From: a virus
DNA: 50,361 nucleotides
Direction: 5' to 3' (one strand)
Virus record (IMG/VR): IMGVR_UViG_3300021165_002265
Span: 1 to 50,361 of that record
The notes under the pieces are model-generated. The model did no database searches, was not told the origin of the DNA, and saw nothing but the letters and a program-made list of their open reading frames with translations. The position numbers and the translations under genes were made by a program. Positions 10,063 to 38,172 of the stretch are shown here, piece after piece. Every line of letters begins with the position of its first letter. Position 1 is the first letter of the stretch.

Positions 10063-10912
10063 AACTTTCGTCTAATTCCATTTTAGTAATAAATAATGTT
10101 TTCAAATTCTTCTGCAAAGATAAAGCATTTTTATCATAAATCCAACCTTTAGGAGAGAAATGTTTTTTTAATTTTCGTAAACTAGTGAATGAAGCTAAAA
10201 TATCTCCTTTAATATCTGTTACGATAAACACTTGTTCTTTTCTTTCTAGTAGCTCTAAAGATTTTTTAAAAGGATTACCTGGCATGTTTTTTACTTGCTC
10301 TAACATATCTGCAACTAAGTCTCTAGTTTCTTTCTGTACATCGTTCTTGATTCTTAATTTAACTAAATGCATAAAAGCTAAAAAACTCATAGTCCAAATA
10401 AATGTTGTCTCCAAAGACAATGGAAGTACAGATCTGGCTTGTTCTTTACTTGTCCCTAATTCAAGTAACTTTTGATAAGCTGTTTTAGCATTCTCTATTA
10501 TTTCATCTTGAGTAATATTCGCTATTACATTATTTAGTTTACTTAAATCCTCACCGCTACCTTGTTTTGAATCTTTTGACTGACTTCTAAATGTTTCAAT
10601 AGCGTAATAAGAATCTGAGAAATCCACATATCTTCCGGATATTGAATTTACAGACATATTCTCCATTGGTAAATTAACTTCAACGCCAATTTCGTGCTTT
10701 CTAAGCTGTCTTTCCACATAAATAGGACACGACAATCTAAATTGTAATTGCGCATGCCTGAATGGAGATACGTGCCCTTCTTCCCATAAAAATTCTAATA
10801 GATTTTCATTTTGGCTAGCCGGATAATTTGATGCTTCTTTATCGTAAGAAACTCTAGCGACATTTGCAATTTTAATATCGCTTCCCATAAAATCAATTAA
10901 CTCTGCTTTCAT
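10049..10912 (-). CDS. thyX: flavin-dependent thymidylate synthase ThyX
   Basis: ThyX makes dTMP from dUMP with FAD, NADPH and methylene-tetrahydrofolate, supporting phage DNA synthesis. Hallmarks are HVSPFRHAQLQFRL, VERQLRKHEIG and SGRYVDF, which correspond to the flavin- and dUMP-binding segments. The usual RHRxxS-type signature reads RKHEIG here and about nine residues (VEVNLPMEN) seem inserted before the MSVNSISGRY part. The C-terminal 60 residues (from about 228) extend past the usual core. A host-type -7 box and an inverted repeat lie just upstream. It is the first gene of an operon with three hypothetical genes. Confidence 0.85.
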   Translation of the reverse strand: MKAELIDFMGSDIKIANVARVSYDKEASNYPASQNENLLEFLWEEGHVSPFRHAQLQFRLSCPIYVERQLRKHEIGVEVNLPMENMSVNSISGRYVDFSDSYYAIETFRSQSKDSKQGSGEDLSKLNNVIANITQDEIIENAKTAYQKLLELGTSKEQARSVLPLSLETTFIWTMSFLAFMHLVKLRIKNDVQKETRDLVADMLEQVKNMPGNPFKKSLELLERKEQVFIVTDIKGDILASFTSLRKLKKHFSPKGWIYDKNALSLQKNLKTLFITKMELDESYEEI

Positions 10913-10939
10913 TGTTTAAAACTTTTTAGTAAACTTAAT

Positions 10940-10974
10940 TTTGCACACTAAACTTAATCGGTTTATTGTGCAAA
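10940..10974 (-). promoter_or_regulatory. inverted repeat in the thyX leader
   Basis: TTTGCACA and TGTGCAAA flank an inner TAAAC/GTTTA pair, giving a 13-pair interrupted palindrome. It overlaps the end of a TATATTTGC -7 box at 10970-10978 and lies 28 bases before the thyX start. It could be an operator or a 5'-leader hairpin. Confidence 0.5.
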
Positions 10975-10979
10975 TATAA

Positions 10980-11633
10980 CTATATTATTTTATATTTTAA
11001 CATTAATTTAAATAATTCTTCACTTCCATCTCCATCTGAAGGATAATGAACTCCGGACAATTCTCTGACATCTTTTATCTTCTTGTACAAATCTAAAAAA
11101 TAATCTTTTGAAGATGGTTTTAGTTTCATTAATTGGTAAATCATCATTAGGAAATCCATAGTGTGTCCCGAAGGATAGGCAGCTGAATTTGCATCCGTTC
11201 TAGTTACAGGATGTAATTTTATTTCATACTCCCCAGCTAATTCATTAGGTCTTGGTCTATTAAAGTAATCTTTAAGGTAATATACTACAGGGAAAACTTC
11301 ATCAGCCCAGGAGTTAACTTTTTTTCTATCCACACCTTTAATCCCTAATTTTTCCGCTGTTTTAACAAAGAAATCTAAATGATGATGTTCCATATAAAAG
11401 CACATGCTTTTTTCTTTATCCGTAATATTATCAGAAATTTTTTTAAGATGCTCAAGTTCTTTTTTTGCAAGATCTGAAGAGTTCTTCGGAGGAGGAAATT
11501 TTTTTATAAATTCATTTATCATACCGGAATCTTTAGCTTTTTTAAGAGTTCCGTATTTATCTTTTTTAATCTTTGTTACATATTCCTCTGGCTGATTTCC
11601 AAATTTAACCGAGTCTATTTTTTTAAAATCCAT
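10980..11633 (-). CDS. PAP2-family acid phosphatase
   Basis: The three conserved PAP2 motifs are present in order: KDYFNRPRP near residue 114, AYPSGHT near residue 143, and RELSGVHYPSD near residue 197, which carry the catalytic histidines. No membrane helices are predicted, so it resembles the soluble, non-specific acid phosphatase or haloperoxidase-like branch. It might dephosphorylate nucleotides or lipids; the substrate is unknown. It lies immediately upstream of the thyX promoter region, which overlaps its 3' end. Confidence 0.8.
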   Translation of the reverse strand: MDFKKIDSVKFGNQPEEYVTKIKKDKYGTLKKAKDSGMINEFIKKFPPPKNSSDLAKKELEHLKKISDNITDKEKSMCFYMEHHHLDFFVKTAEKLGIKGVDRKKVNSWADEVFPVVYYLKDYFNRPRPNELAGEYEIKLHPVTRTDANSAAYPSGHTMDFLMMIYQLMKLKPSSKDYFLDLYKKIKDVRELSGVHYPSDGDGSEELFKLMLKYKII

Positions 11634-11937: not shown

Positions 11938-13077
11938 TTAATGTGAATCCCCAACATTATTTTTTTCGCTATATATTAAGTAATCTGGGTTTATTACTTT
12001 AGCTACTTTTGCTCTGTTTCCATCGACAGCTTTTATAACAACACCTTCATGAGGAACTTTGGTGTTGTTTATAAAATTATTAAATACAAATTTATTTTTC
12101 ACCTCCTCTGAATAAAGCCCTTTATACAAGACTTCAACGTATGGCAATTTTAAATAATCGTTAACCACAAATTCAGCTGAGGTTAGATTAAAATACTTTT
12201 TGTTTAATTCAACATCAAAAATACAAAGCTGTATATCATCTAATCCGTACTCATAATTTTTTTGAATACCTTTACCGTAGATTTCTCCATAGATTATTAA
12301 TCCACTACCTATAGAAGTATCGTTACCTTTAATACTTATATTCTTTTTAACAAGATTCCAAAGCTTGTTTTTGATATCGTATTTTTTTTCAATATCATAC
12401 CAAACGTTAGTATCATAGAAACCCTGAGTGTCGGATCCTTTTTCTACGTTATGAGAACCTACTACAAATTCATACTCGCCCCAACCTAAATTAAAACCAA
12501 AGAACTTTTTAATTTTATCCCATAGAGATAATTTACTTTTCTTGACAATTCCATACCTTGCATTTGTTCCGTGTATTTTCCTTGTTATTTCTACATAATC
12601 ATATTCATCAAAAATATTAGGAACATTTTTAAAATTAGGAAATTTGTAATAAATATAAAAATTTGGATTTTCATAGTACTTCCTTTTTTTTCCACTAGAT
12701 AAAGTAATAAGTCTAGCTGGAGGTTCATACTTATATATTTTAAGTATGTCCATTAAATCCTCACCATATTTCCTTCTATTCTCAGGAATTAAATCAATTG
12801 GCATTAATAGGCATTCGCTATAAACGCCTCTTAATTTAATTGTTCTAACCCTTTCTTTACTCCGAAGATAATTAGTTACGCCTAATTTCTCTGAAATTTC
12901 TAAAGGTATTACAGCATCTGTTGTAGCACAGACAACTAAATCCCCAATTGAGTGAGAACCTTTTTTAACAATACAAAACCATCCATTTACAACAGCTAGT
13001 TCTATATTATCAGCATCCGGAATATCTTGAATACTATTTATTGCGGACACAAAACAAACACTATTTTCATTTTTCAT
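11938..13077 (-). CDS. Rnl5-type RNA ligase with N-terminal OB fold
   Basis: This enzyme should seal RNA ends with ATP through a covalent lysyl-AMP. The N-terminal 110 residues resemble the OB-fold of Deinococcus-type Rnl5 ligases (INSIQDIPDADNIELAVVNG, then SKERVRTIKLRGVYSECLL). The nucleotidyltransferase core follows with motif I RKIHGTNARYG near residue 167, motif IV IYGEIYGKG near residue 270 and motif V HEGVVIKA near residue 345. The 379-residue length suits Rnl5. It has a perfect host-type promoter. A polynucleotide kinase-like gene at 16822 and an HD phosphohydrolase at 20327 could supply end healing, so tRNA or RNA repair is the likely role. Confidence 0.85.
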   Translation of the reverse strand: MKNENSVCFVSAINSIQDIPDADNIELAVVNGWFCIVKKGSHSIGDLVVCATTDAVIPLEISEKLGVTNYLRSKERVRTIKLRGVYSECLLMPIDLIPENRRKYGEDLMDILKIYKYEPPARLITLSSGKKRKYYENPNFYIYYKFPNFKNVPNIFDEYDYVEITRKIHGTNARYGIVKKSKLSLWDKIKKFFGFNLGWGEYEFVVGSHNVEKGSDTQGFYDTNVWYDIEKKYDIKNKLWNLVKKNISIKGNDTSIGSGLIIYGEIYGKGIQKNYEYGLDDIQLCIFDVELNKKYFNLTSAEFVVNDYLKLPYVEVLYKGLYSEEVKNKFVFNNFINNTKVPHEGVVIKAVDGNRAKVAKVINPDYLIYSEKNNVGDSH

Positions 13078-14544: not shown

Positions 14545-14902
14545 CATTATTATTTTCAAGTCTACAATGCTCATTTACATAATCGTACAATGTATCAATA
14601 TTAAAACATATAGGAGTCTTATCAGAATCCCATGCAGCAGGTTCTCTGTCCGGATACATAATATCTTCATCTGCCTTAGCATCATAGGTTCTAACAAATT
14701 CAAAAAGATACCATGTTATCCAATCTAATCCTTCATCTTTATAATGAGATAGTATGCTTTGACTGAATATTGAATTAATCAAATCATCTATAGGAAAACG
14801 CTTATTCTCCAAAAAATTAAATCCGATATCATGTAAATTTGACATGTGCATACAAACATCATAATAGGACTTCAAGAGCATTTTAAAACTTTCTTTTTTC
14901 AT
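14513..14902 (-). CDS. hypothetical protein
   Basis: A 129-residue acidic, helical protein with aromatic clusters (DWITWYLFEFVRTYD). I do not recognise a family. It overlaps the upstream metallophosphatase by four bases (ATGA) and the downstream DUF4326 gene by 32, so all three sit on one transcript. Confidence 0.55.
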   Translation of the reverse strand: MKKESFKMLLKSYYDVCMHMSNLHDIGFNFLENKRFPIDDLINSIFSQSILSHYKDEGLDWITWYLFEFVRTYDAKADEDIMYPDREPAAWDSDKTPICFNIDTLYDYVNEHCRLENNNDDSEIKSSPL

Positions 14903-15636
14903 ATTTCATTTGTTAATTGTCCTACACTGACTTCATCATTTTCTATAATTAGATATTCCCGGCTCATTCCTAGGGTATCAATATAGTAGTACCGGCCTCC
15001 TGTAGTTTGTCCCTTAATATCAATTTTCTTTTGCTGAGTATGACCTACAACCTGGATAAATTCTTTTCTTAATGTATCGTAGTTGGATTCCTGCAAGGAC
15101 TTAGGCCGGATCCATATAGGAGAGGATTCAACACTATCTCCATAAGGATCCCACCCGGAGAATTTAAAAGCGCGGGGAGAAGCAATAAACAAATCATTAA
15201 CAAGAACATCAATATCTTCAAATCTAATTTTAGTCTTATTTTTACCCAGCCAATATTCTAACCATTTATAACTAACTCCCGCATGACTAAATAAATACTT
15301 ATCCATCTTATAACACATGGATAACTCATTTATATGTTCCATCAATAACGACTGAATAGTATGATGATGCCCTCTCTGATGCCCTGAATATGTTTCATTA
15401 GCAAAAGGCATGTAATGAAAGTCATGATTACCAATTAACATAATAACATCTGCTTTTGAATTACTCTTAAATTCAATCAAACGTTTAAAATTATGTAATT
15501 GAACTATAATTCTTATATCTTCATGTGTATCAAAGTAATCTCCTACAAATATAAATCTATCTGCATCATTTTCCTTTTCAACAATTTGTTCCCATGATAT
15601 TCTACCATGAATGTCTCCAATAATTACACTTTTCAT
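14899..15636 (-). CDS. calcineurin-like metallophosphatase
   Basis: Motifs of the two-metal phosphoesterase fold appear in order: GDIHGR at residues 8-13, FVGDYFD near residue 30, LIGNHDFHY near residue 65, FSHAG near residue 113 and VVGHTQ near residue 194. This is the pattern of serine/threonine protein phosphatase-like phage enzymes such as that of lambda. The 245-residue length is normal. It could act on proteins or on phosphate ends of nucleic acids. It starts one base before the stop codon of the 57-residue gene upstream and overlaps the next gene by four. Confidence 0.85.
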   Translation of the reverse strand: MKSVIIGDIHGRISWEQIVEKENDADRFIFVGDYFDTHEDIRIIVQLHNFKRLIEFKSNSKADVIMLIGNHDFHYMPFANETYSGHQRGHHHTIQSLLMEHINELSMCYKMDKYLFSHAGVSYKWLEYWLGKNKTKIRFEDIDVLVNDLFIASPRAFKFSGWDPYGDSVESSPIWIRPKSLQESNYDTLRKEFIQVVGHTQQKKIDIKGQTTGGRYYYIDTLGMSREYLIIENDEVSVGQLTNEI

Positions 15637-16821: not shown

Positions 16822-17223
16822 TCACAATGAAATTTCAAATCTTTCTCTCATCTTTGTTATAGTCTCTTCCGGGCAATCATGAACATTTTTACCTCCATGT
16901 CTATTTTCCACAATTAATGAAAAGACCGTATAACCATGCTCTTTTGCCAAATCAAAGTAGGGTTTCATTTCCCATTCTTGTGTAAAGGTATTGGAAACAA
17001 CAATCCCGGGAACATCAAATCCTCTATCATTGGTTTCCATCCACTCTTTAACCTGATTCCTGCACCAAGAATGAGCCTCTTTCAATTTAGAAGCATCAAA
17101 CTTATATTCACCATCTTGCATAAAATACTGATCCGCTTCAATGTGAACACCACCCAATAATTTCGCTAGAGTGGATTTACCGGACCCTGGAAGGCCTCTT
17201 AATAATAAAAGTGTTTTACTCAT
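16822..17223 (-). CDS. polynucleotide kinase-like P-loop protein
   Basis: The 133-residue protein matches the NEDD4BP2/T4-Pnk-like kinase family: Walker A GLPGSGKSTLAK at residues 9-20, HIEADQYF with the likely catalytic aspartate, FDASKLKEAHSWCR, then SNTFTQEWEMKPYFDLAKEH and an arginine-rich lid near MRERF. Such enzymes phosphorylate 5'-OH ends of RNA or DNA. There is no phosphatase domain, unlike T4 Pnkp. With the RNA ligase at 11938 and the HD protein at 20327 it could form a split repair pathway. Confidence 0.75.
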   Translation of the reverse strand: MSKTLLLLRGLPGSGKSTLAKLLGGVHIEADQYFMQDGEYKFDASKLKEAHSWCRNQVKEWMETNDRGFDVPGIVVSNTFTQEWEMKPYFDLAKEHGYTVFSLIVENRHGGKNVHDCPEETITKMRERFEISL

Positions 17224-17913: not shown

Positions 17914-18056
17914 TAATCAGGACAGGATTCGAACCTGCAAAGTTGAACTGTATTACATAAATGGACTCTTTAGAATGTGGAGGATAAACTCTCCGACTAT
18001 TTACACCACGTCAACCTTATCATGTTTTAAGCGTCTTCCAATTCCGCCACCTGACT
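17914..18056 (-). tRNA. aberrant tRNA-Leu-like locus (143 nt)
   Basis: Acceptor strands AGTCAGG and CCTGATT pair over seven positions (one G-U). The D arm GCGGAATTGGAAGACGC and the T arm GCAGG-TTCGAAT-CCTGT are intact, the latter with one G-U pair. Between D and T arms there are about 90 bases where a leucine tRNA needs about 35. The excess includes GGAG/CTCC and AAG-TTGA/TCAA-CTT pairings. No clean anticodon arm is visible, so decoding is doubtful. It may be a tRNA with an insert or a tRNA-like processing site. Confidence 0.55.
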
Positions 18057-18119
18057 GTACTTAGATTTTTAAAACCCACCTTTTACAAGGCAAGGAAACT
18101 CCATCTTATGTTTTTTGCG

Positions 18120-18215
18120 TGGCTAGGAAAGGATTCGAACCAATACGAATGAAGCGTAACCTATTTATCATTCTACCTTTGTAACGATAGCGTCTACCAA
18201 TTTCGCCACCTAGCT
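18120..18215 (-). tRNA. tRNA-Leu-like locus with enlarged anticodon loop (96 nt)
   Basis: The D arm GCGAAATTGGTAGACGC and the acceptor strands (AGCTAGG with CCTAGCC, A-C at the first pair) are kept, and GGTTCGAATCC is present, though the T stem has mismatches. The anticodon stem pairs TATCGTT with AATGATA, leaving a ten-base loop; with a standard five-pair stem the loop has 14 bases rather than seven. Removing seven bases can give TTTAGAA, a Leu(UAG) loop. Confidence 0.5.
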
Positions 18216-18226
18216 ATTTTATTTCT

Positions 18227-18550
18227 TTAAACCAAACGTAAAGCACGAAACCAATTTAGTATTAGATTCTTTTCTCCGTTAGGATATGTCCATTTACCTG
18301 TAATCATAAATAATAGAGGTAAAGAAATAAACATTAATATAAATAGAATTAACGCAAAAGGTAAAGTAAATCTTACCCATCCTTTAATTTCTGTTCTTTC
18401 CTCTGAGTAAAAATTAATTCCAAGGGATCTCCACCTCTCGCACATTTCCTCGTATGACACTTTTTTTAACTCAGGAAAAGTTTCACTGAATTTTGGTATG
18501 TAGGTCCAATTATTATGAGACCACACTCTTTTTAGTTTTTGAAATACCAT
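18227..18550 (-). CDS. membrane protein embedded in the tRNA-like cluster
   Basis: The 107-residue product has a soluble N-terminal half (KLKRVWSHNNWTYIPKF) and a hydrophobic segment of about 25 residues (FALILFILMFISLPLLFMI) followed by a short basic tail. It lies between two tRNA-like loci, so its messenger may be released by tRNA processing enzymes. No family is recognised. Confidence 0.5.
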   Translation of the reverse strand: MVFQKLKRVWSHNNWTYIPKFSETFPELKKVSYEEMCERWRSLGINFYSEERTEIKGWVRFTLPFALILFILMFISLPLLFMITGKWTYPNGEKNLILNWFRALRLV

Positions 18551-18570
18551 TTTTTATACAATTTTGTTAG

Positions 18571-18784
18571 TAGCAAGGACAGGATTCGAACCTGTACTTA
18601 CAATAAAGCCAATTAGCCATTCCATGACAATAAAGGAATTGAACCTTTACATTGTAACCCATTATGAGTAAATCGGATTTACACCGAAGCGTCTACCAAG
18701 TTTAAACATTGACCCCGTAGTGGATTCTAACCACATTATTTTCACTACTGGAACGGGGTTGTTTAAACATTCCGCCACCTTGCC
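18571..18784 (-). tRNA. composite tRNA-like locus (214 nt) with a D-loop insertion
   Basis: Outer acceptor strands GGCAAGG and CCTTGCT pair fully (one G-U). The 3' T arm ACAGG-TTCGAAT-CCTGT is perfect. The D arm is split after GCGGAA by a 61-base repeat unit and resumes as TTGGTAGACGC. An anticodon-like arm CGG-TGTAAAT-CCG follows (UAA, but G at the usual U33). A second perfect T arm AAAGG-TTCAATT-CCTTT lies inside. It looks like two fused tRNA modules plus an insert; function is uncertain. Confidence 0.5.
18700..18771 (-). repeat. hairpin insert flanked by 11-bp direct repeats in a tRNA D loop
   Basis: GTTTAAACATT occurs at 18700-18710 and 18761-18771. Between them ACCCCGT/ACGGGGT and GTAGTG/CACTAC pair into a long hairpin. 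Direct repeats flanking a hairpin look like the trace of a small insertion, inside what would otherwise be a normal D loop. Confidence 0.55.
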
Positions 18785-18860
18785 AAAATGAGTGTTTTTG
18801 TAATATCCCTAGAACACACAAACTATGCTGACCTACGATTCAGAGAGCGTCCACGCCAAT

Positions 18861-18879
18861 ATTCGACTTGTAATCGAAT
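18861..18879 (+). other. isolated anticodon-arm-like hairpin
   Basis: ATTCGA-CTTGTAA-TCGAAT has the exact form of a tRNA-Thr(UGU) anticodon arm on the plus strand. The surrounding 100 bases do not form a convincing acceptor or T arm, so this is at most a tRNA remnant. Confidence 0.25.
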
Positions 18880-18930
18880 CTGTAATCTCTATCTTCGATC
18901 CATACCCAGGCCTAGGTAGAGGGCTTTTTG

Positions 18931-19085
18931 TAGTCAGGACAGGATTCGAACCTGCAATACTGCCGCACTTCTGCGCTGATACCTTTTTTGTTTAACGTAA
19001 GGTTCGGCAAACCTCATTACAGTTTTTTAGTGTCTCCCATCAGGAATCGGCTTGATCAGTGCCGCCCTTGTTCCACCACCTGACT
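18931..19085 (-). tRNA. tRNA-like locus with D-loop insertion (155 nt)
   Basis: Acceptor strands AGTCAGG and CCTGACT are perfectly complementary with A at the discriminator position; the T arm GCAGG-TTCGAAT-CCTGT has one G-U pair. The D arm starts GTGGAA and resumes GGGAGACAC about 30 bases later, with a GGAA/TTCC plus GGC/GCC hairpin inserted. A CGCA/TGCG stem could be a long variable arm. The anticodon region is expanded and unclear. A host-type promoter starts it. Confidence 0.5.
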
Positions 19086-19143: not shown

Positions 19144-19767
19144 TTATGTTAATTTATTTCTTAGCACTTGAATAACATCCCACGCATCCAATAAAGCATT
19201 ATGAGAAACATTTCCATCAATATTAGCTCTCTTCTTACATACATCCAAAGAAGGCAGAACATCATCATTATTCACATCAAAATATAAAATTGCGGGGTCT
19301 AATATCCTTTTACGAACATCAATAAACCCAACCCATCCAGGAATATTATTTAAGAATAACATGTCAAATGCAGCAAAATTCTTTCCAGCTACATTTATCT
19401 TATATCTCTGAAATCTAGGATCAGCTTTAATTCCATTAGCATGTAGAAAAGATGTAAAAGATTCAGTTAATGTAAAAGTTTCAACAAAGATAGGATTATA
19501 ATTACCTACCTCATTATTTAACACATCATACGCATCATTTCTTTCATTTTCTACATAATCTGAAATATCCTTAATAACATCCATATTCATCAATAATGCT
19601 TTAGGAGATCCTTTAATGCTTCTATGAATGACAGTAGCATAGAACTTAGGACAATCTTCAAATGATAAAGATTTACTTGTATCTTCAATGATTGCTCCAA
19701 ATGATAGGATTTGATTTTTATTAGGATTCAAACCACTTGTTTCAATATCAATACTAACATACAACAT
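19144..19767 (-). CDS. DnaQ-like 3'-5' exonuclease
   Basis: The protein begins with the ExoI motif DIETSGLNP (catalytic D and E at about residues 7 and 9) and ends with HNALLDAWDVIQVL, the ExoIII-type H-x4-D of DEDDh nucleases. A middle aspartate (FAAFDMLFLNN near residue 135) fits ExoII. Length (207) is that of a stand-alone RNase T/oligoribonuclease-like or DnaQ exonuclease, so RNA or DNA ends may be trimmed. It lies directly upstream of the tRNA-like promoter, which makes a link with tRNA maturation possible but unproven. Confidence 0.8.
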   Translation of the reverse strand: MLYVSIDIETSGLNPNKNQILSFGAIIEDTSKSLSFEDCPKFYATVIHRSIKGSPKALLMNMDVIKDISDYVENERNDAYDVLNNEVGNYNPIFVETFTLTESFTSFLHANGIKADPRFQRYKINVAGKNFAAFDMLFLNNIPGWVGFIDVRKRILDPAILYFDVNNDDVLPSLDVCKKRANIDGNVSHNALLDAWDVIQVLRNKLT

Positions 19768-22228: not shown

Positions 22229-22306
22229 CAGTCAGGGCCGGACTCGAACCGGATAAGCGACCATTTTACTTGACTTGGAACCATTCCTCATTACGCCCAC
22301 CTGACT
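22229..22306 (-). tRNA. atypical tRNA-like locus (78 nt)
   Basis: Acceptor strands AGTCAGG and CCTGACT are perfect and the T arm CCGG-TTCGAGT-CCGG is intact. The rest is of near-normal length but does not form a standard anticodon arm: GGAA-TGG-TTCC sits where the D/anticodon region should be and CCA/TGG flanks a 12-base loop. It is related to the tRNA-like loci at 17.9-19.1 kb by its ends. It lies between two genes of one strand. Confidence 0.45.
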
Positions 22307-24941: not shown

Positions 24942-25017
24942 AAAACAGTTTTGCGCGGGGAACCCAAATAAATAAACATCCCAGCAATTAAATAAATAAA
25001 CATCCTTAACATGAATA

Positions 25018-25049
25018 CAAAGATACAACATAAAATAATAACATCCAAA
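25018..25049 (-). promoter_or_regulatory. host-type promoter of the second array segment
   Basis: TTTG, exactly 20 bases, TATCTTTG on the minus strand. Spacer and the following leader (including ATTGCTGGGAT and CCCCGCG) resemble those of the first array promoter at 28306, so it is a duplicated control region. Confidence 0.7.
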
Positions 25050-25077
25050 TAAAACATCAATAAAGACATTAATATAA

Positions 25078-25254
25078 TCATAACTTTATATTTCGTATTA
25101 CTTGACTAACTAATCCCTCCCTAATTTCAATACACATAAAATCCCTTACTTGATTCCACACTTTAAATCTTACTGGGCTACTAACTTTATTACTCATTGG
25201 AGACATTAATTGATCTCTTATTTGTTCACTTACTTCATTTTCAACATTCTTCAT
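25078..25254 (-). CDS. QV-repeat array protein 16
   Basis: 58 residues: MKNVENEVSEQIRDQLMS at the start and QVIRNIKL at the end, with VWNQV in the middle. Start overlaps the previous stop (ATGA). It is the last gene of the first segment; the promoter of the second segment lies 29 bases beyond its stop. Confidence 0.65.
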   Translation of the reverse strand: MKNVENEVSEQIRDQLMSPMSNKVSSPVRFKVWNQVRDFMCIEIREGLVSQVIRNIKL

Positions 25255-25463
25255 AACTTCATATTTTGTTTTACATGTGTTCGTATTTCATTACTCACAT
25301 TACTATAGACTTGATTATTTATTTGATCCCATATTGGCCTCTGTATTTGCTCTATTACTAGAACCCAAACTTCAGTACTTACTTCATTACTTACTTTATT
25401 TATTAATCCGCAATTTAATTTACTCCATATTTGTCTCCGTCCTTTCTCGCTCGTATTATTCAT
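25251..25463 (-). CDS. QV-repeat array protein 15
   Basis: 70 residues with clear spacing in the second half (EQIQRPIWDQINNQVYSNVS) and the typical end HVKQNMKL. ATGA overlaps link it to neighbours on both sides. Confidence 0.65.
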   Translation of the reverse strand: MNNTSEKGRRQIWSKLNCGLINKVSNEVSTEVWVLVIEQIQRPIWDQINNQVYSNVSNEIRTHVKQNMKL

Positions 25464-25659
25464 AACTTCATATTTTGTCTTACCTGGTTGATTACTTGAA
25501 TATATAATTGTTCTTTTGTCTCGGTATATATTTCATTGTTTATCTGACTATATACTTTGTAATTTGTTTTATCCGATATTTCACCTCGCAATTTATTCTG
25601 AATTTTATCCCATATTTTTCCCATACTATACTGTTTACTTGACTGTTTAAATTCCTCAT
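25460..25659 (-). pseudogene. QV-repeat array gene 14, interrupted at an A tract
   Basis: From the ATG at 25659 the frame reads MRNLNSQVNSIVWEK and leaves the array pattern after GAAAAAT. One base back, array sequence resumes (KIWDKIQNKLRGEIS) and ends IQVINQVRQNMKL at the ATGA of gene 15. Adding one A to the A5 tract restores the whole gene. It could be off by slipped-strand mutation or read by a -1 frameshift. Confidence 0.65.
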
Positions 25660-25865
25660 AACTTTATTTTTTGTGCTACATGATACCATACTTGTCTCCT
25701 TACTTGATCTGCCAATTTATTAGTAGTTAATTCAACCATTTGATTAGTTACTTTACTAGATACTTTCATTTCTATTTTATCTTCTACCATATTTCGGGTG
25801 TGAACTCTTAAATTCATCCATAATTTATCACATGAAGATGCTACTTTTTTCTGTACCTTTTTCAT
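25656..25865 (-). CDS. QV-repeat array protein 13
   Basis: 69 residues from MKKVQKKVASSCDKLWMN, with spaced V/M/L residues and the tail QVRRQVWYHVAQKIKL. A frame extends upstream over the end of gene 12 but the ATGA overlap start is favoured. Confidence 0.65.
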   Translation of the reverse strand: MKKVQKKVASSCDKLWMNLRVHTRNMVEDKIEMKVSSKVTNQMVELTTNKLADQVRRQVWYHVAQKIKL

Positions 25866-26050
25866 AACTCTATATTTTCTTTTATTTGAGTCCATACTTG
25901 AAAACATACCTGCCCCCTTATTTGAGTCCATACTTGACTAGCTATTCTAGCTTCTACCTGGTCATTTACTTGACTCTTAACTAAAACCCGTAGTAGACTT
26001 CTTACTCCAATATTCATTTTATTATCTATAGTTTCATTTACAGTCTTCAT
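25862..26050 (-). CDS. QV-repeat array protein 12
   Basis: 62 residues. It is nearly the same as protein 10 through its first 40 residues (MKTVNETIDNKMNIG; KSQVNDQVEARIASQVW) and ends TQIKENIEL. Recent duplication with gene 11 between the copies is likely. ATGA overlaps at both ends. Confidence 0.7.
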   Translation of the reverse strand: MKTVNETIDNKMNIGVRSLLRVLVKSQVNDQVEARIASQVWTQIRGQVCFQVWTQIKENIEL

Positions 26051-26241
26051 AACTTCATGTTTTGTTTTACTTGAAAAGCTATTTGATTTGTTATTTCATT
26101 TGTTGCTTGATATCTTAATTGAATTAGATCCTTGATTAAATACCATACCTGAATATTAATTTTATTACCTAGTTTTATTCTTAATTCACTTCTCAATTCA
26201 CCACTTATTTTTTGGTATACTTGTTTCTTTACATTTATCAT
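26047..26241 (-). CDS. QV-repeat array protein 11
   Basis: 64 residues, more isoleucine-rich than its neighbours (GNKINIQVWYLIKDLIQL), ending AFQVKQNMKL. It sits between the near-identical genes 10 and 12, joined by ATGA overlaps. Confidence 0.65.
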   Translation of the reverse strand: MINVKKQVYQKISGELRSELRIKLGNKINIQVWYLIKDLIQLRYQATNEITNQIAFQVKQNMKL

Positions 26242-26426
26242 AATTTCTTATTTTGTTTTAATTGAGCCCATACTTGCAAACATACCTGATCTCTAGGTTT
26301 CACCCACACTTGACTGTCTATTCTAGCTTCTACCTGGTCATTTACTTGACTCTTTGTTAAAATCCGTAGTAGATTTCTTAATCCAATATTCATTTTATAA
26401 GTTATAGTATCATTTACAGTCTTCAT
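26238..26426 (-). CDS. QV-repeat array protein 10
   Basis: 62 residues, MKTVNDTITYKMNIGLRN through KSQVNDQVEARIDSQVW, closely matching protein 12. Ends QLKQNKKL. ATGA overlaps at both ends. Confidence 0.7.
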   Translation of the reverse strand: MKTVNDTITYKMNIGLRNLLRILTKSQVNDQVEARIDSQVWVKPRDQVCLQVWAQLKQNKKL

Positions 26427-26620
26427 ACTTTTCTCTCTGACAATGATGCGTGTATGTTTTCTCGTACATTCACATATAATGAATCAAATACTTGGTCTCT
26501 TATTTTACTCCTTACTTTGTCCTCTACGATATCCTTTACTTTACTACCTAGAGTGCTCCATCCTGGACTTTTTGCTTTAGTTCTTATTGCATTACTTACT
26601 GTATCTCTCACATTCTTCAT
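26423..26620 (-). CDS. QV-repeat array protein 9
   Basis: 65 residues from MKNVRDTVSNAIRTK. The repeat is clear in KVKDIVEDKVRSKIRDQV; the end (SLSERKV) has lost the usual KL and is the most divergent of the segment, but the ATGA overlap is kept. Confidence 0.65.
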   Translation of the reverse strand: MKNVRDTVSNAIRTKAKSPGWSTLGSKVKDIVEDKVRSKIRDQVFDSLYVNVRENIHASLSERKV

Positions 26621-26781
26621 AACTTTATGTTTTCTTTTACTTGATCCCACAATTGATTACTTACTTTATTACGTACTTGAGTACGTCCTTGATGACTTAC
26701 TCTATACCGTACTTGATCCTCTACTTCATACCATACTTTATCACATACTTTATCACTTATTTTTTCACTTACATCCTTCAT
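26617..26781 (-). CDS. QV-repeat array protein 8
   Basis: 54 residues: MKDVSEKISDKVCDKVWYEV, continuing with VEDQVRYRV and ending NQLWDQVKENIKL. Its first and last thirds match protein 7, so the pair arose by duplication. ATGA overlaps at both ends; an upstream in-frame ATG at 26811 would overlap gene 7. Confidence 0.7.
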   Translation of the reverse strand: MKDVSEKISDKVCDKVWYEVEDQVRYRVSHQGRTQVRNKVSNQLWDQVKENIKL

Positions 26782-26942
26782 AACTTTATGTTTTCTTTTA
26801 CTTGCTCCCACAATTGATTACGAACTTTATTATTTACTTGACTCTGTACTTCCTTCGATACTTGGTTCCATACATCTTTCCATACTTTACTACTTATTTT
26901 ACCACCTATTTTATCACTTATTTTTTCACTTACATCCTTCAT
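26778..26942 (-). CDS. QV-repeat array protein 7
   Basis: 54 residues with one of the most regular patterns: MKDVSEKISDKIGGKISSKV, then VWKDVWNQV, ending NQLWEQVKENIKL. Hydrophobic residues fall every fourth position. ATGA overlaps at both ends. Confidence 0.7.
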   Translation of the reverse strand: MKDVSEKISDKIGGKISSKVWKDVWNQVSKEVQSQVNNKVRNQLWEQVKENIKL

Positions 26943-27151
26943 AACTTCTTATTTTCTGTTACTTGACTTCTCACTTGATTCCATACTCTATGACTCACTC
27001 GAATCGTAACTACATCAATTACCATATTACTTACTTTATTACGTATTTTAGTACTTACTTGATTACCTATATGATACTCTAGTTGATTACCTATTTGATA
27101 CTCTAGTTGATTACTCATCTGATTACATACTCTATAAATCACATTCTTCAT
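26939..27151 (-). CDS. QV-repeat array protein 6
   Basis: 70 residues with a local tandem duplication (NQLEYQIGNQLEYHIGNQV) and VWNQVRSQVTENKKL at the end. Its opening MKNVIYRVCNQM resembles that of protein 5. ATGA overlaps at both ends. Confidence 0.7.
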   Translation of the reverse strand: MKNVIYRVCNQMSNQLEYQIGNQLEYHIGNQVSTKIRNKVSNMVIDVVTIRVSHRVWNQVRSQVTENKKL

Positions 27152-27360
27152 AACTTCGTACTTTCTGTTACTTGACTTCTCACTTGACTCCTTACGTTAT
27201 CACTTACTTGATTACTTACTTGATTACTTACTTGATTACGTACTTGACGATTTACTTCATCCCGTACTATATCTTCTACTTGATTCCATGCCTCATTACA
27301 TACTTGATATCCAAATTGACCATTCATCTGGTTACTTACTCTATGAATTACATTCTTCAT
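27148..27360 (-). CDS. QV-repeat array protein 5
   Basis: 70 residues containing the cleanest repeat run (RQVRNQVSNQVSNQVSDNV), encoded by near-exact 12-base units. Starts MKNVIHRVSNQM and ends QVTESTKL. A frame extends 30 codons upstream across the end of gene 4, but the ATGA overlap start matches the other members. Confidence 0.7.
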   Translation of the reverse strand: MKNVIHRVSNQMNGQFGYQVCNEAWNQVEDIVRDEVNRQVRNQVSNQVSNQVSDNVRSQVRSQVTESTKL

Positions 27361-27608
27361 AACTTCGTATTTTGTTTTACTTGATTCCATACTTGGTCTA
27401 GTACTTGATATCCTAATGGACTCCATACTTTCCCCTTCACTTGTTTCCATACTTTTTCACTTACTTTATTACTTGTTAACCGATAGCTTAGTTTACTAAT
27501 TACTTGACTCCTTACTTGATTACTTGCTTCATTTCTTACGTTACCCCATACTTGACTAACTACTTCATCACATACTGCATCATTTACTTTGCTATCTACA
27601 TTCTTCAT
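27357..27608 (-). CDS. QV-repeat array protein 4
   Basis: 83 residues, the longest array member without an added domain. MKNVDSKVNDAVCDEVVSQV at the start; LDQVWNQVKQNTKL at the end. ATGA overlaps at both ends. Confidence 0.7.
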   Translation of the reverse strand: MKNVDSKVNDAVCDEVVSQVWGNVRNEASNQVRSQVISKLSYRLTSNKVSEKVWKQVKGKVWSPLGYQVLDQVWNQVKQNTKL

Positions 27609-27769
27609 AACTTTACATTTTGTTTTACTTGAGCCGATTGTTGATTACATACTTGAATCCATACTTGATCGCTTATTTTCTTCCATACTTGATTCCACAC
27701 TACACCATCTACTTGATGCAATACTTTACTTCCTATCTGCTGTCTTACTTTATTTCTCATATCCCTCAC
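27605..27769 (-). CDS. QV-repeat array protein 3 (GTG start)
   Basis: 54 residues. The start overlaps the previous stop as GTGA; an ATG lies three codons later. Pattern: RNKVRQQIGSKVLHQVDGVV, then VWNQVWKKISDQVWIQV and VKQNVKL. Too short to be noticed easily, but fixed by the junctions on both sides. Confidence 0.65.
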   Translation of the reverse strand: MRDMRNKVRQQIGSKVLHQVDGVVWNQVWKKISDQVWIQVCNQQSAQVKQNVKL

Positions 27770-27954
27770 AACTTTACATTTCGTTTTACTTGTTCCATTA
27801 TTTGAGTACCTAATTGATCTTTTGTTCGAGTTAGTACTTGATTCACTACTTGGTTCAATACATCATTCCATACTTTACTACTTATTTTATCACCTAATTT
27901 ATTACATGATCTATTACGTACTAAAGAAGTTACTTCACTTTTTACATTTCTCAT
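27766..27954 (-). CDS. QV-repeat array protein 2
   Basis: 62 residues: MRNVKSEVTSLVRNR, then VWNDVLNQVVNQVLTRTKD and the end QVKRNVKL. The preceding gene stops 16 bases before its start rather than overlapping. Confidence 0.65.
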   Translation of the reverse strand: MRNVKSEVTSLVRNRSCNKLGDKISSKVWNDVLNQVVNQVLTRTKDQLGTQIMEQVKRNVKL

Positions 27955-27970
27955 AACTTAACATTTTGTT

Positions 27971-28213
27971 TTACCTGTTCCTAAATTCGATTTGATAATT
28001 GTTCATGTTTATCCTCTCCAATTTGAATACATGCCTTACCTCATTACTTACTCGACCCTTTACTCTATTACTTACTTGATCTCGTATTTGATTACTCACT
28101 TGATCTCGCACTTGTTTACTTACCCGAGACCATAATTTACTATTTGCTTTATTCCATGTTTGATTCATAATATCTCTCACATGCTCCCTGACTTTGTTAT
28201 CCACATTATTCAT
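27971..28213 (-). CDS. QV-repeat array protein 1
   Basis: First gene of the array, 80 residues. MNNVDNKVREHVRD leads into KQVRDQVSNQIRDQVSNRV. The C-terminal 20 residues (FKLERINMNNYQIEFRNR) leave the pattern, as if a frameshift replaced the usual tail. The bases before its start match the junction module seen between later genes although no gene precedes it. Confidence 0.65.
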   Translation of the reverse strand: MNNVDNKVREHVRDIMNQTWNKANSKLWSRVSKQVRDQVSNQIRDQVSNRVKGRVSNEVRHVFKLERINMNNYQIEFRNR

Positions 28214-28305
28214 AACTTTACATTTTGTTTTACTGGGTTTTCTGAATATTTCGCGGGGACACTACATAATACATAATCCCAGCAATACATCATTTAATCA
28301 TAATA

Positions 28306-28337
28306 CAAACATACAACATTAAAATAACATATCCAAA
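28306..28337 (-). promoter_or_regulatory. host-type promoter of the first array segment
   Basis: TTTG, exactly 20 bases, TATGTTTG on the minus strand, about 95 bases before array gene 1. The leader resembles that of the promoter at 25018. Confidence 0.7.
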
Positions 28338-28379
28338 CATAATAACAATAAAAAATAAAATAAAAACATTCTAATATAA

Positions 28380-28856
28380 CATTAATACATTTATACTATC
28401 ATGTACGGTATCATGTACGGTATCATGTCTTCCATACATCATCCAATATAACATCTAACATACATTTAATAAATCATATCAGTAACATAAAGAATATAAA
28501 ATGTAATCCTAATCAACATGACAGTAACATGAATAGATAAATGATAAATGAAAGAAAATGAGATAAATAAGATGGTCAAATCAATCACGTGTAGGAGTAT
28601 GATTGGAAATGATGTGCAGGTATCGGGGAATGCGCAGCAAAAAATACGTTCTATGTTGTGTGTTAAATTGTAGTGCATCCGGTTTAATATGTGGATAAGT
28701 GGGGGGCTGTCAGGCGAATTTTTTCATCGAATGCCTTTATTTCGCACACACGAGGCTTCTAATAAACTTTGGGCGGAACCCTTCGTCTAGTTCCACCCAC
28801 CATGAGAAGATGTAGCAGAATGAACGCTACATGCCTAAAAATGGATTCTATGATGT
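28380..28856. other. gene-poor stretch with short repeats and hairpins
   Basis: Contains two and a half tandem copies of TATCATGTACGG (28397-28428), a hairpin with GGGCGGAAC and GTTCCACCC arms (one mismatch, about 28769-28797), and TAGC-AGAATGAAC-GCTA nearby. A hydrophobic open frame at 28466-28678 is not convincing. A small RNA or replication element is possible. Confidence 0.35.
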
Positions 28857-32769: not shown

Positions 32770-32784
32770 GTTATTTTTATTTTG

Positions 32785-32858
32785 TGGACCAGGCAGGACT
32801 CGAACCTACCACCTTCTCGTTATGAGCGAGCTGCTCTAACCAACTGAGCTACTGGTCC
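32785..32858 (-). tRNA. tRNA-Met (CAT)
   Basis: A canonical 74-base tRNA: acceptor GGACCAG/CTGGTCC, D arm GCTC...GAGC, anticodon arm CTCG-CTCATAA-CGAG with CAT, T arm GTAGG-TTCGAGT-CCTGC (one U-G pair), discriminator A. CCA is not encoded. In contrast to the aberrant loci elsewhere it is fully standard; by anticodon alone it could also be an Ile2 tRNA after modification. Confidence 0.9.
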
Positions 32859-38062: not shown

Positions 38063-38172
38063 TGGAAGTCAGGGCAGGAATCGAACCTACATGATAAGTA
38101 GTATAGTTGATTAAGTGAAAACGTACTTACTTATCTATTCACTTCTAGCGTCTACCATTTCGCCACCTGACT
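38063..38172 (-). tRNA. tRNA-Leu-like locus with an 18-base loop in place of the anticodon loop
   Basis: Acceptor AGTCAGG/CCTGACT and T arm GTAGG-TTCGATT-CCTGC are intact, the D arm reads GCGAAATGGTAGACGC, and CCA appears to be encoded. The central arm is a perfect seven-pair stem AAGTGAA/TTCACTT closing 18 bases, too large for a decoding loop. It lies just past a short gene and is followed by a strong terminator. Confidence 0.55.

Follow-up and report, generated by a model that had tools for sequence, protein, structure and literature searches.

The small stable RNAs of phage T4, RNA C and RNA D (species 1 and 2 RNA; NC_000866 70908-71171), are classed as late RNAs with unknown function (PMC9697503). 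Their genes adjoin tRNA genes, RNA D ends in CCA, and the 3' end of RNA C is a T-arm hairpin followed by an acceptor-like strand (CCGGGTTCGAATCCCGG CGTTTCG TAC), attached to a large non-tRNA core. As judged by inspection, they appear to be the nearest known relatives in kind of the phage RNAs described here, which are likewise predicted to be small stable RNAs built on a tRNA frame, i.e., an acceptor that is usually AGTCAGG/CCTGACT, a T arm, an A15-U48 pair and mostly a Leu-type D arm. Both are encoded by phage genes and combine a tRNA-like 3' end with the lack of an anticodon arm. However, T4 RNA C and RNA D are two individual RNAs that have neither the AGTCAGG frame nor the Leu-type D arm, their ends differ by eye from those of the class, and the acceptor of RNA C is paired at only about 5/7 positions. 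To our knowledge, no cassette exchange has been described for either of them.

Other known systems share parts of this layout. The class resembles the class II tRNA tRNA-Leu in its D arm (TGGCGGAATTGGTAGACGC), A15-U48 pair, T arm, A73, leader and trailer, but its anticodon arm is replaced by a core, about 20-200 nt long, that has folds of its own. Structured RNA has been put in the anticodon place of an artificial tRNA scaffold, which uses tRNA folding and maturation for stability (PMC3753655). The layout is the same, but the scaffold carries engineered single inserts, whereas the class is natural, comprises hundreds of families and is exchanged among phages. Like the class, tmRNA combines a tRNA-like domain with pseudoknots; the class differs in having no tag ORF, in having U3-A70 (acceptor AGTCAGG) instead of G3-U70, and in being far shorter. 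Rfam gave no tmRNA match at the class loci, and tmRNA genes were seen elsewhere in some of the same phage contigs (L015 15263-15662; L025 1088-1533; L357 2914-3306). Theta ribozymes, which are associated with tRNA maturation in phages of Bacteroidota, lie beside ordinary tRNAs (PMC10879173), whereas the elements of the class lie inside the tRNA fold and match no ribozyme family.

The window, i.e., the whole stretch of DNA that was analyzed, is an uncultured virus record of 50,361 bases. All six tRNA-like loci claimed in the earlier note are present, all on the minus strand and with paired acceptor and T arm. The features are:

17915-18056, minus strand: tRNA-framed RNA 1, acceptor AGTCAGG/CCTGATT, Leu-type D arm, core of roughly 90 nt, T arm
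18121-18215, minus strand: tRNA-framed RNA 2, acceptor AGCTAGG/CCTAGCC, normal D arm
18572-18784, minus strand: tRNA-framed RNA 3, acceptor GGCAAGG/CCTTGCT, D-loop insert B, long core
18700-18768, minus strand: D-loop insert B (69 nt), within RNA 3
18932-19085, minus strand: tRNA-framed RNA 4, acceptor AGTCAGG/CCTGACT, D-loop insert A
19040-19070, minus strand: D-loop insert A (31 nt), within RNA 4
22230-22306, minus strand: tRNA-framed RNA 5, acceptor AGTCAGG/CCTGACT, without a Leu-type D arm
38067-38172, minus strand: tRNA-framed RNA 6, acceptor of the GTCAGG type, D arm intact, predicted pseudoknot core
32784-32858, minus strand: ordinary tRNA-Met(CAT), for contrast, called by ARAGORN and Rfam

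The tRNA-Leu type D arm, said to be usual, is found at five of the six loci and is missing from the 22230 locus. The acceptor GTCAGG had been credited to five loci and occurs at four, with GCAAGG at the 18571 locus and GCTAGG at the 18120 locus. Loops extended by 7-60 bases were a wrong description of these RNAs, as the canonical place holds an anticodon arm no more often than expected by chance, and D-loop inserts are restricted to the 18571 (69 nt) and 18931 (31 nt) loci. The ordinary tRNA-Met expected near 32785 was recovered and is the sole ARAGORN and Rfam call in the window. None of the six loci was reported by these programs, the Rfam tRNA score of the 18120 locus being 26.7 bits, below the 29-bit gathering score.

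The surroundings of the array contain several further elements. An RNA ligase gene (11938-13077), a calcineurin-like phosphoesterase gene (14899-15636) and a PNK-like ATPase gene (16822-17223), all on the minus strand, lie near the array and likely form an RNA-repair set. Directly upstream of the array is a DnaQ/RNase T-like exonuclease gene (19144-19767, minus strand), which is also present in the related contigs L003 and L005 and could act on 3' ends. When neighboring genes were compared across phages, no recurring gene or partner protein was found beside the class members. The intergenic segment 18800-18925 (minus strand), located between two of the loci, is conserved in L003 (about 10830-10970) and L005 (about 10980-11130). 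It contains a hairpin with a 7-nt loop, ATTCGA-TTACAAG-TCGAAT in one form and ATATGCGA-CTTATAC-TCGTATAT in the other, with apparently compensatory changes, and may be a further structured RNA. Farther away, 25000-28400 is an array of short related ORFs with many self-similar segments, a recurring leader of roughly 40 nt and internal repeats with periods of 12 nt and 24 nt (ACTTACTTGATTACG-like), which is reshuffled between the window and L003/L004.

Loci of this kind are also present in the relatives L003, L004 and L005, which were found through the neighboring exonuclease gene. Exact-pattern scans of IMG/VR with T-arm/acceptor or D-arm/acceptor patterns, whose counts are lower bounds, gave at least 642 distinct copies of the AGTCAGG frame with inner lengths of 37-291 nt among the matches listed. 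These fall into at least 370 core clusters, 262 of them singletons, and as the clusters were made by BLAST, families may be split. The Chao1 estimate is approximately 915 core families among the matches listed. Up to 16 copies occur per phage record with the T-arm/acceptor pattern applied to whole records, compared to 0 in the reversed control. Different core families stand side by side in one array, and all copies lie on the same strand in 150 of the 150 loci with at least two copies. Copies from the same genome are not more diverse than random draws (4 same-family pairs compared to 5.1), hence selection for a non-redundant set is not indicated.

The class is specific to phages. Approximately 85,000 bacterial and archaeal genomes yielded four matches, each limited to one contig of its genome, and proteins clearly of phage type are encoded on at least two of these four contigs (L136 and L138). 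No match was obtained in a sample of 394 other Bacteroidota genomes. Neither the AGTCAGG frame nor the core families were found in cultured phages, the lone match being an unannotated member of cluster 8 at 510-640 of the metagenomic phage MW202828 (L409), with the acceptor AGTGCAG/CTGCACT. Directly upstream of the class, the promoter-like motif TAnnTTTG is enriched (51 compared to 17), with a notable instance at 19085. This enrichment suggests that at least some of the phages carrying the class infect Bacteroidota. A promoter-like motif, TTG-N20-TATATTTG, was also seen directly upstream of RNA 4. Rfam in both gathering and E-value modes returned only tRNA, tmRNA and sub-threshold chance matches, with no other family and no ribozyme. 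A description of the class was found neither in databases nor in open-access papers.

The ends of these genes are those of a tRNA. Candidates anchored on the D-arm and T-loop motifs, a set in which pairing was not required and ordinary tRNAs are included, have a paired acceptor (at least 6 of 7 pairs) in 492 of 609 cases, with 114 different acceptor sequences among the 492. The tRNA elbow features (A14, the 15-48 pair and the D-loop GG) are present in the class and absent from some core families, and some copies have no Leu-type D arm. Where there is a D arm, the 15-48 pair is A15-U48 in 413 of 466 copies and G15-C48 in 8 of 466. Bacterial RNase P favors U-1 and A-4. The leader of the class has U-1 in 80%, A-2 in 70% and A-4 in 70%, and the corresponding values for 764 ordinary tRNAs of the same contigs are 69%, 60% and 66%, with a background of about 32%. 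The 3' context A73-C74-A/T-A is also that of ordinary phage tRNAs, with A73 at 90% in the class and C74 at 99% in both; C74 is partly imposed by the search pattern, but is also found in 64 of 69 copies chosen independently of it. This agreement of leader and trailer with ordinary tRNAs bears out the earlier proposal of RNase P and 3' processing, and supports the class as probable tRNA-type substrates of these enzymes. As evidence to the contrary, the earlier note had named acceptor and T arms that decay at random among relatives. The opposite is seen: the ends are kept paired, and acceptor and T arm are identical in relatives across core swaps. Decay of former tRNAs was rejected.

The cores have structures of their own. 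The 22230 family is a separate core family and the largest of all, with 31 members, some of which have an extra domain of roughly 40 nt. Six pairs are changed on both sides in this family, acceptor and T-stem pairs included, compared to three in the 18932 family, whose core is common to L095, L270, L292, L320 and L378, and stems covary in many further core families. The segment whose end lies exactly 2 nt upstream of the T stem has a perfect 6-nt Watson-Crick complement in 43 of 322 cluster representatives, compared to 6.3 expected. The signal is restricted to offsets 2-3 and falls to background level two positions off, and because the helix is fixed 2 nt before the T stem, unrelated cores appear to be mounted in the same register. 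Some cores look pseudoknotted according to the predicted helices. The RNA 6 core has two crossing helices, AAGTGA/TCACTT and GATAAGTA/TACTTATC, which together give a predicted pseudoknot. It is also conserved in 11 further contigs and is almost invariant, with one compensatory pair. Crossing helices are moderately enriched across the class (56 compared to 34 expected). Nested folding energies of the cores lie barely under those of shuffles (mean z -0.57 compared to -0.37 for flanks); therefore, the case for core structure rests on covariation and the T-arm helix.

Cores are exchanged between relatives while the frame stays. Flanking DNA of the window and L003 is mostly about 83-98% identical, and RNA 1 and RNA 3 keep both ends in L003 with different interiors. 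At the site of RNA 1 flanks and ends are alike and the core is unrelated, and at the site of RNA 3 frame and insert B are shared but the core differs. The core of RNA 2 also occurs in L003, and in L005 it sits on another acceptor, together with D-loop insert A. As L005 thus joins the insert of the 18932 locus to the core of the 18121 locus, and L003 keeps the ends around other interiors, the parts are modular. Across matched sites, defined as those at which the flanks on either side can be aligned as far as the gene, cores are unrelated in 35 of 70 pairs (10 of 35 sites), compared to 12 of 148 pairs (9 of 109 sites) for ordinary tRNAs of the same contigs; the number of swapped-site pairs is small, some of them are not independent of each other, and a count by sites instead of pairs lowers the excess over ordinary tRNAs. 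One site has nearly all cores unrelated among eight relatives with identical acceptor and T arm, and in the pairs L023/L045 and L361/L403 the cores differ between flanks that are 99.5-100% identical.

The D-loop inserts are also shared. Insert A occurs on three different cores, and its helix CGGC/GCCG changes in a compensatory manner to CAGC/GCTG in L005 and CAAC/GTTG in L396. Insert B has a palindromic GTTTAAAC stem around a mini acceptor and a T-loop-like hairpin, and recurs in other phages, where it sits on several other core types and its stem has the forms GTTTAAAC, GTTAAC and GTTA. It thus resembles a mini tRNA-like element (an acceptor-like stem and the T-loop hairpin GTGGTTAGAATCCAC) in the D loop of a tRNA-like RNA, and is flanked by an 11-nt direct repeat, AATGTTTAAAC.

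That this is a real structural class is very probable from the sequence comparisons. As a whole it is best explained, with a probability of roughly 0.55, as a class of non-decoding small RNAs on a tRNA frame whose cores are exchangeable and most likely act in trans. Host RNase P and 3'-processing enzymes would cut the RNAs from phage transcripts by recognizing the acceptor, the T arm and the usual Leu-type D arm, and the frame would give them tRNA-like folding and survival. In each RNA, the place of the anticodon arm would be taken by a single structured core out of a pool of hundreds, and the constant ends may double as homology arms for exchange of the core at a fixed site by homologous recombination. 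Each core would most likely be a separate trans-acting RNA, for instance a decoy or inhibitor that binds a protein, and the phage would keep changing its set against variable host or rival-phage factors. Such a set under changing selection fits the rapid replacement, the multiplicity and the absence from hosts. An anti-host role of the cores is a tentative proposal, and none of the cores has a link to a defence system. It is similarly speculative that the frame is a chassis on which phages carry and trade libraries of trans-acting RNA effectors, with hundreds of unrelated structured cores in one frame. Such libraries would do with RNA what anti-defence islands do with proteins.

Several other explanations have to be weighed against these non-decoding RNAs. 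The loci might be tRNA-Leu genes interrupted by introns or small inserts, with splicing restoring decoding. The Leu-type D arm, A73, the RNA ligase and PNK-like ATPase genes in the window, and the fact that ARAGORN or Rfam calls some copies tRNAs all fit this. However, a 5-bp stem with a 7-nt loop and U33 at the canonical anticodon place was found in 2 of 287 copies compared to 1.6 in shuffles, and the ARAGORN calls (133 of the 642 copies listed) have anticodons scattered over nearly all amino acids. In addition, the helix by the T stem is at offset 2 where a class I anticodon stem would give 5, and core families without a D arm exist. The earlier suggestion of tRNAs with small inserts is thus not supported, as no anticodon arm was found and relatives differ by complete replacement of the core, and interrupted tRNA-Leu genes are highly improbable. 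A true intron-containing tRNA was rejected, since the exons rebuild no anticodon arm and the helix by the T stem has the wrong offset, and a minority of the shortest copies may be ordinary tRNAs sharing the acceptor. Decoys for anticodon nucleases, as originally suggested, are not supported because the part read by such enzymes is missing. The copies could still titrate tRNA-binding host factors (RNase P, LeuRS, EF-Tu or tRNA nucleases) with the core as a spacer, and the intact acceptor, T arm and A73 and the Leu-type D arm of most copies are compatible with this. Titration is nevertheless improbable, since it leaves hundreds of conserved core families and the core swapping unexplained, and a fraction of the copies is without the Leu D arm and the anticodon arm is missing.

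Processing punctuation, in which the tRNA shape directs RNase P/Z cuts between genes and the core is filler, accounts for the correct leader and trailer context and for intergenic, co-directional copies. A bare tRNA would suffice for this, however, and filler does not account for covarying stems and conserved loops kept in core families across phages, nor for several copies close together within one array. We consider punctuation unlikely as the main role. The processing signals proposed earlier are possible as a side effect, but the conservation and covariation of core families point to the RNA itself as the product. Antisense or guide RNAs against phage or rival-phage genes have precedents in P4 CI RNA and P1 C4 RNA, phage regulatory RNAs processed by RNase P. 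There is also a weak surplus of 17-mers found elsewhere (46 compared to 15 cores), although part of these are visibly other tRNA-like loci. As exact core matches to the own contig are not above reversed controls and the cores are structured with covarying stems, this role is also rather unlikely, and self-antisense of the P4 CI type was rejected with complementarity to the own contig at control level. Neutral shuffling, in which recombination between the homologous ends of tRNA relics captures random DNA and the resulting set has no function, would agree with the singletons (262 of the 370 clusters among the matches listed) and the weak folding energies. It has little probability given that the ends stay paired with compensatory acceptors, that the tRNA-like leader and trailer are retained, that core families recur with covariation, and that the strand is uniform. 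A type III toxin-antitoxin RNA was also considered and rejected, as there is no shared neighbor gene and the copies within an array differ and are not tandem repeats.

If non-decoding RNAs with exchangeable cores are the correct explanation, phages would harbor a large unannotated RNA class, possibly of about a thousand core families given the Chao1 estimate among the matches listed. The class would also allow T4 RNA C and RNA D to be studied by comparison. The tRNA fold would be the phage's interchangeable mounting for other RNAs, a solution that engineers invented only later, and each swapped core would be a candidate for a host or rival-phage target.
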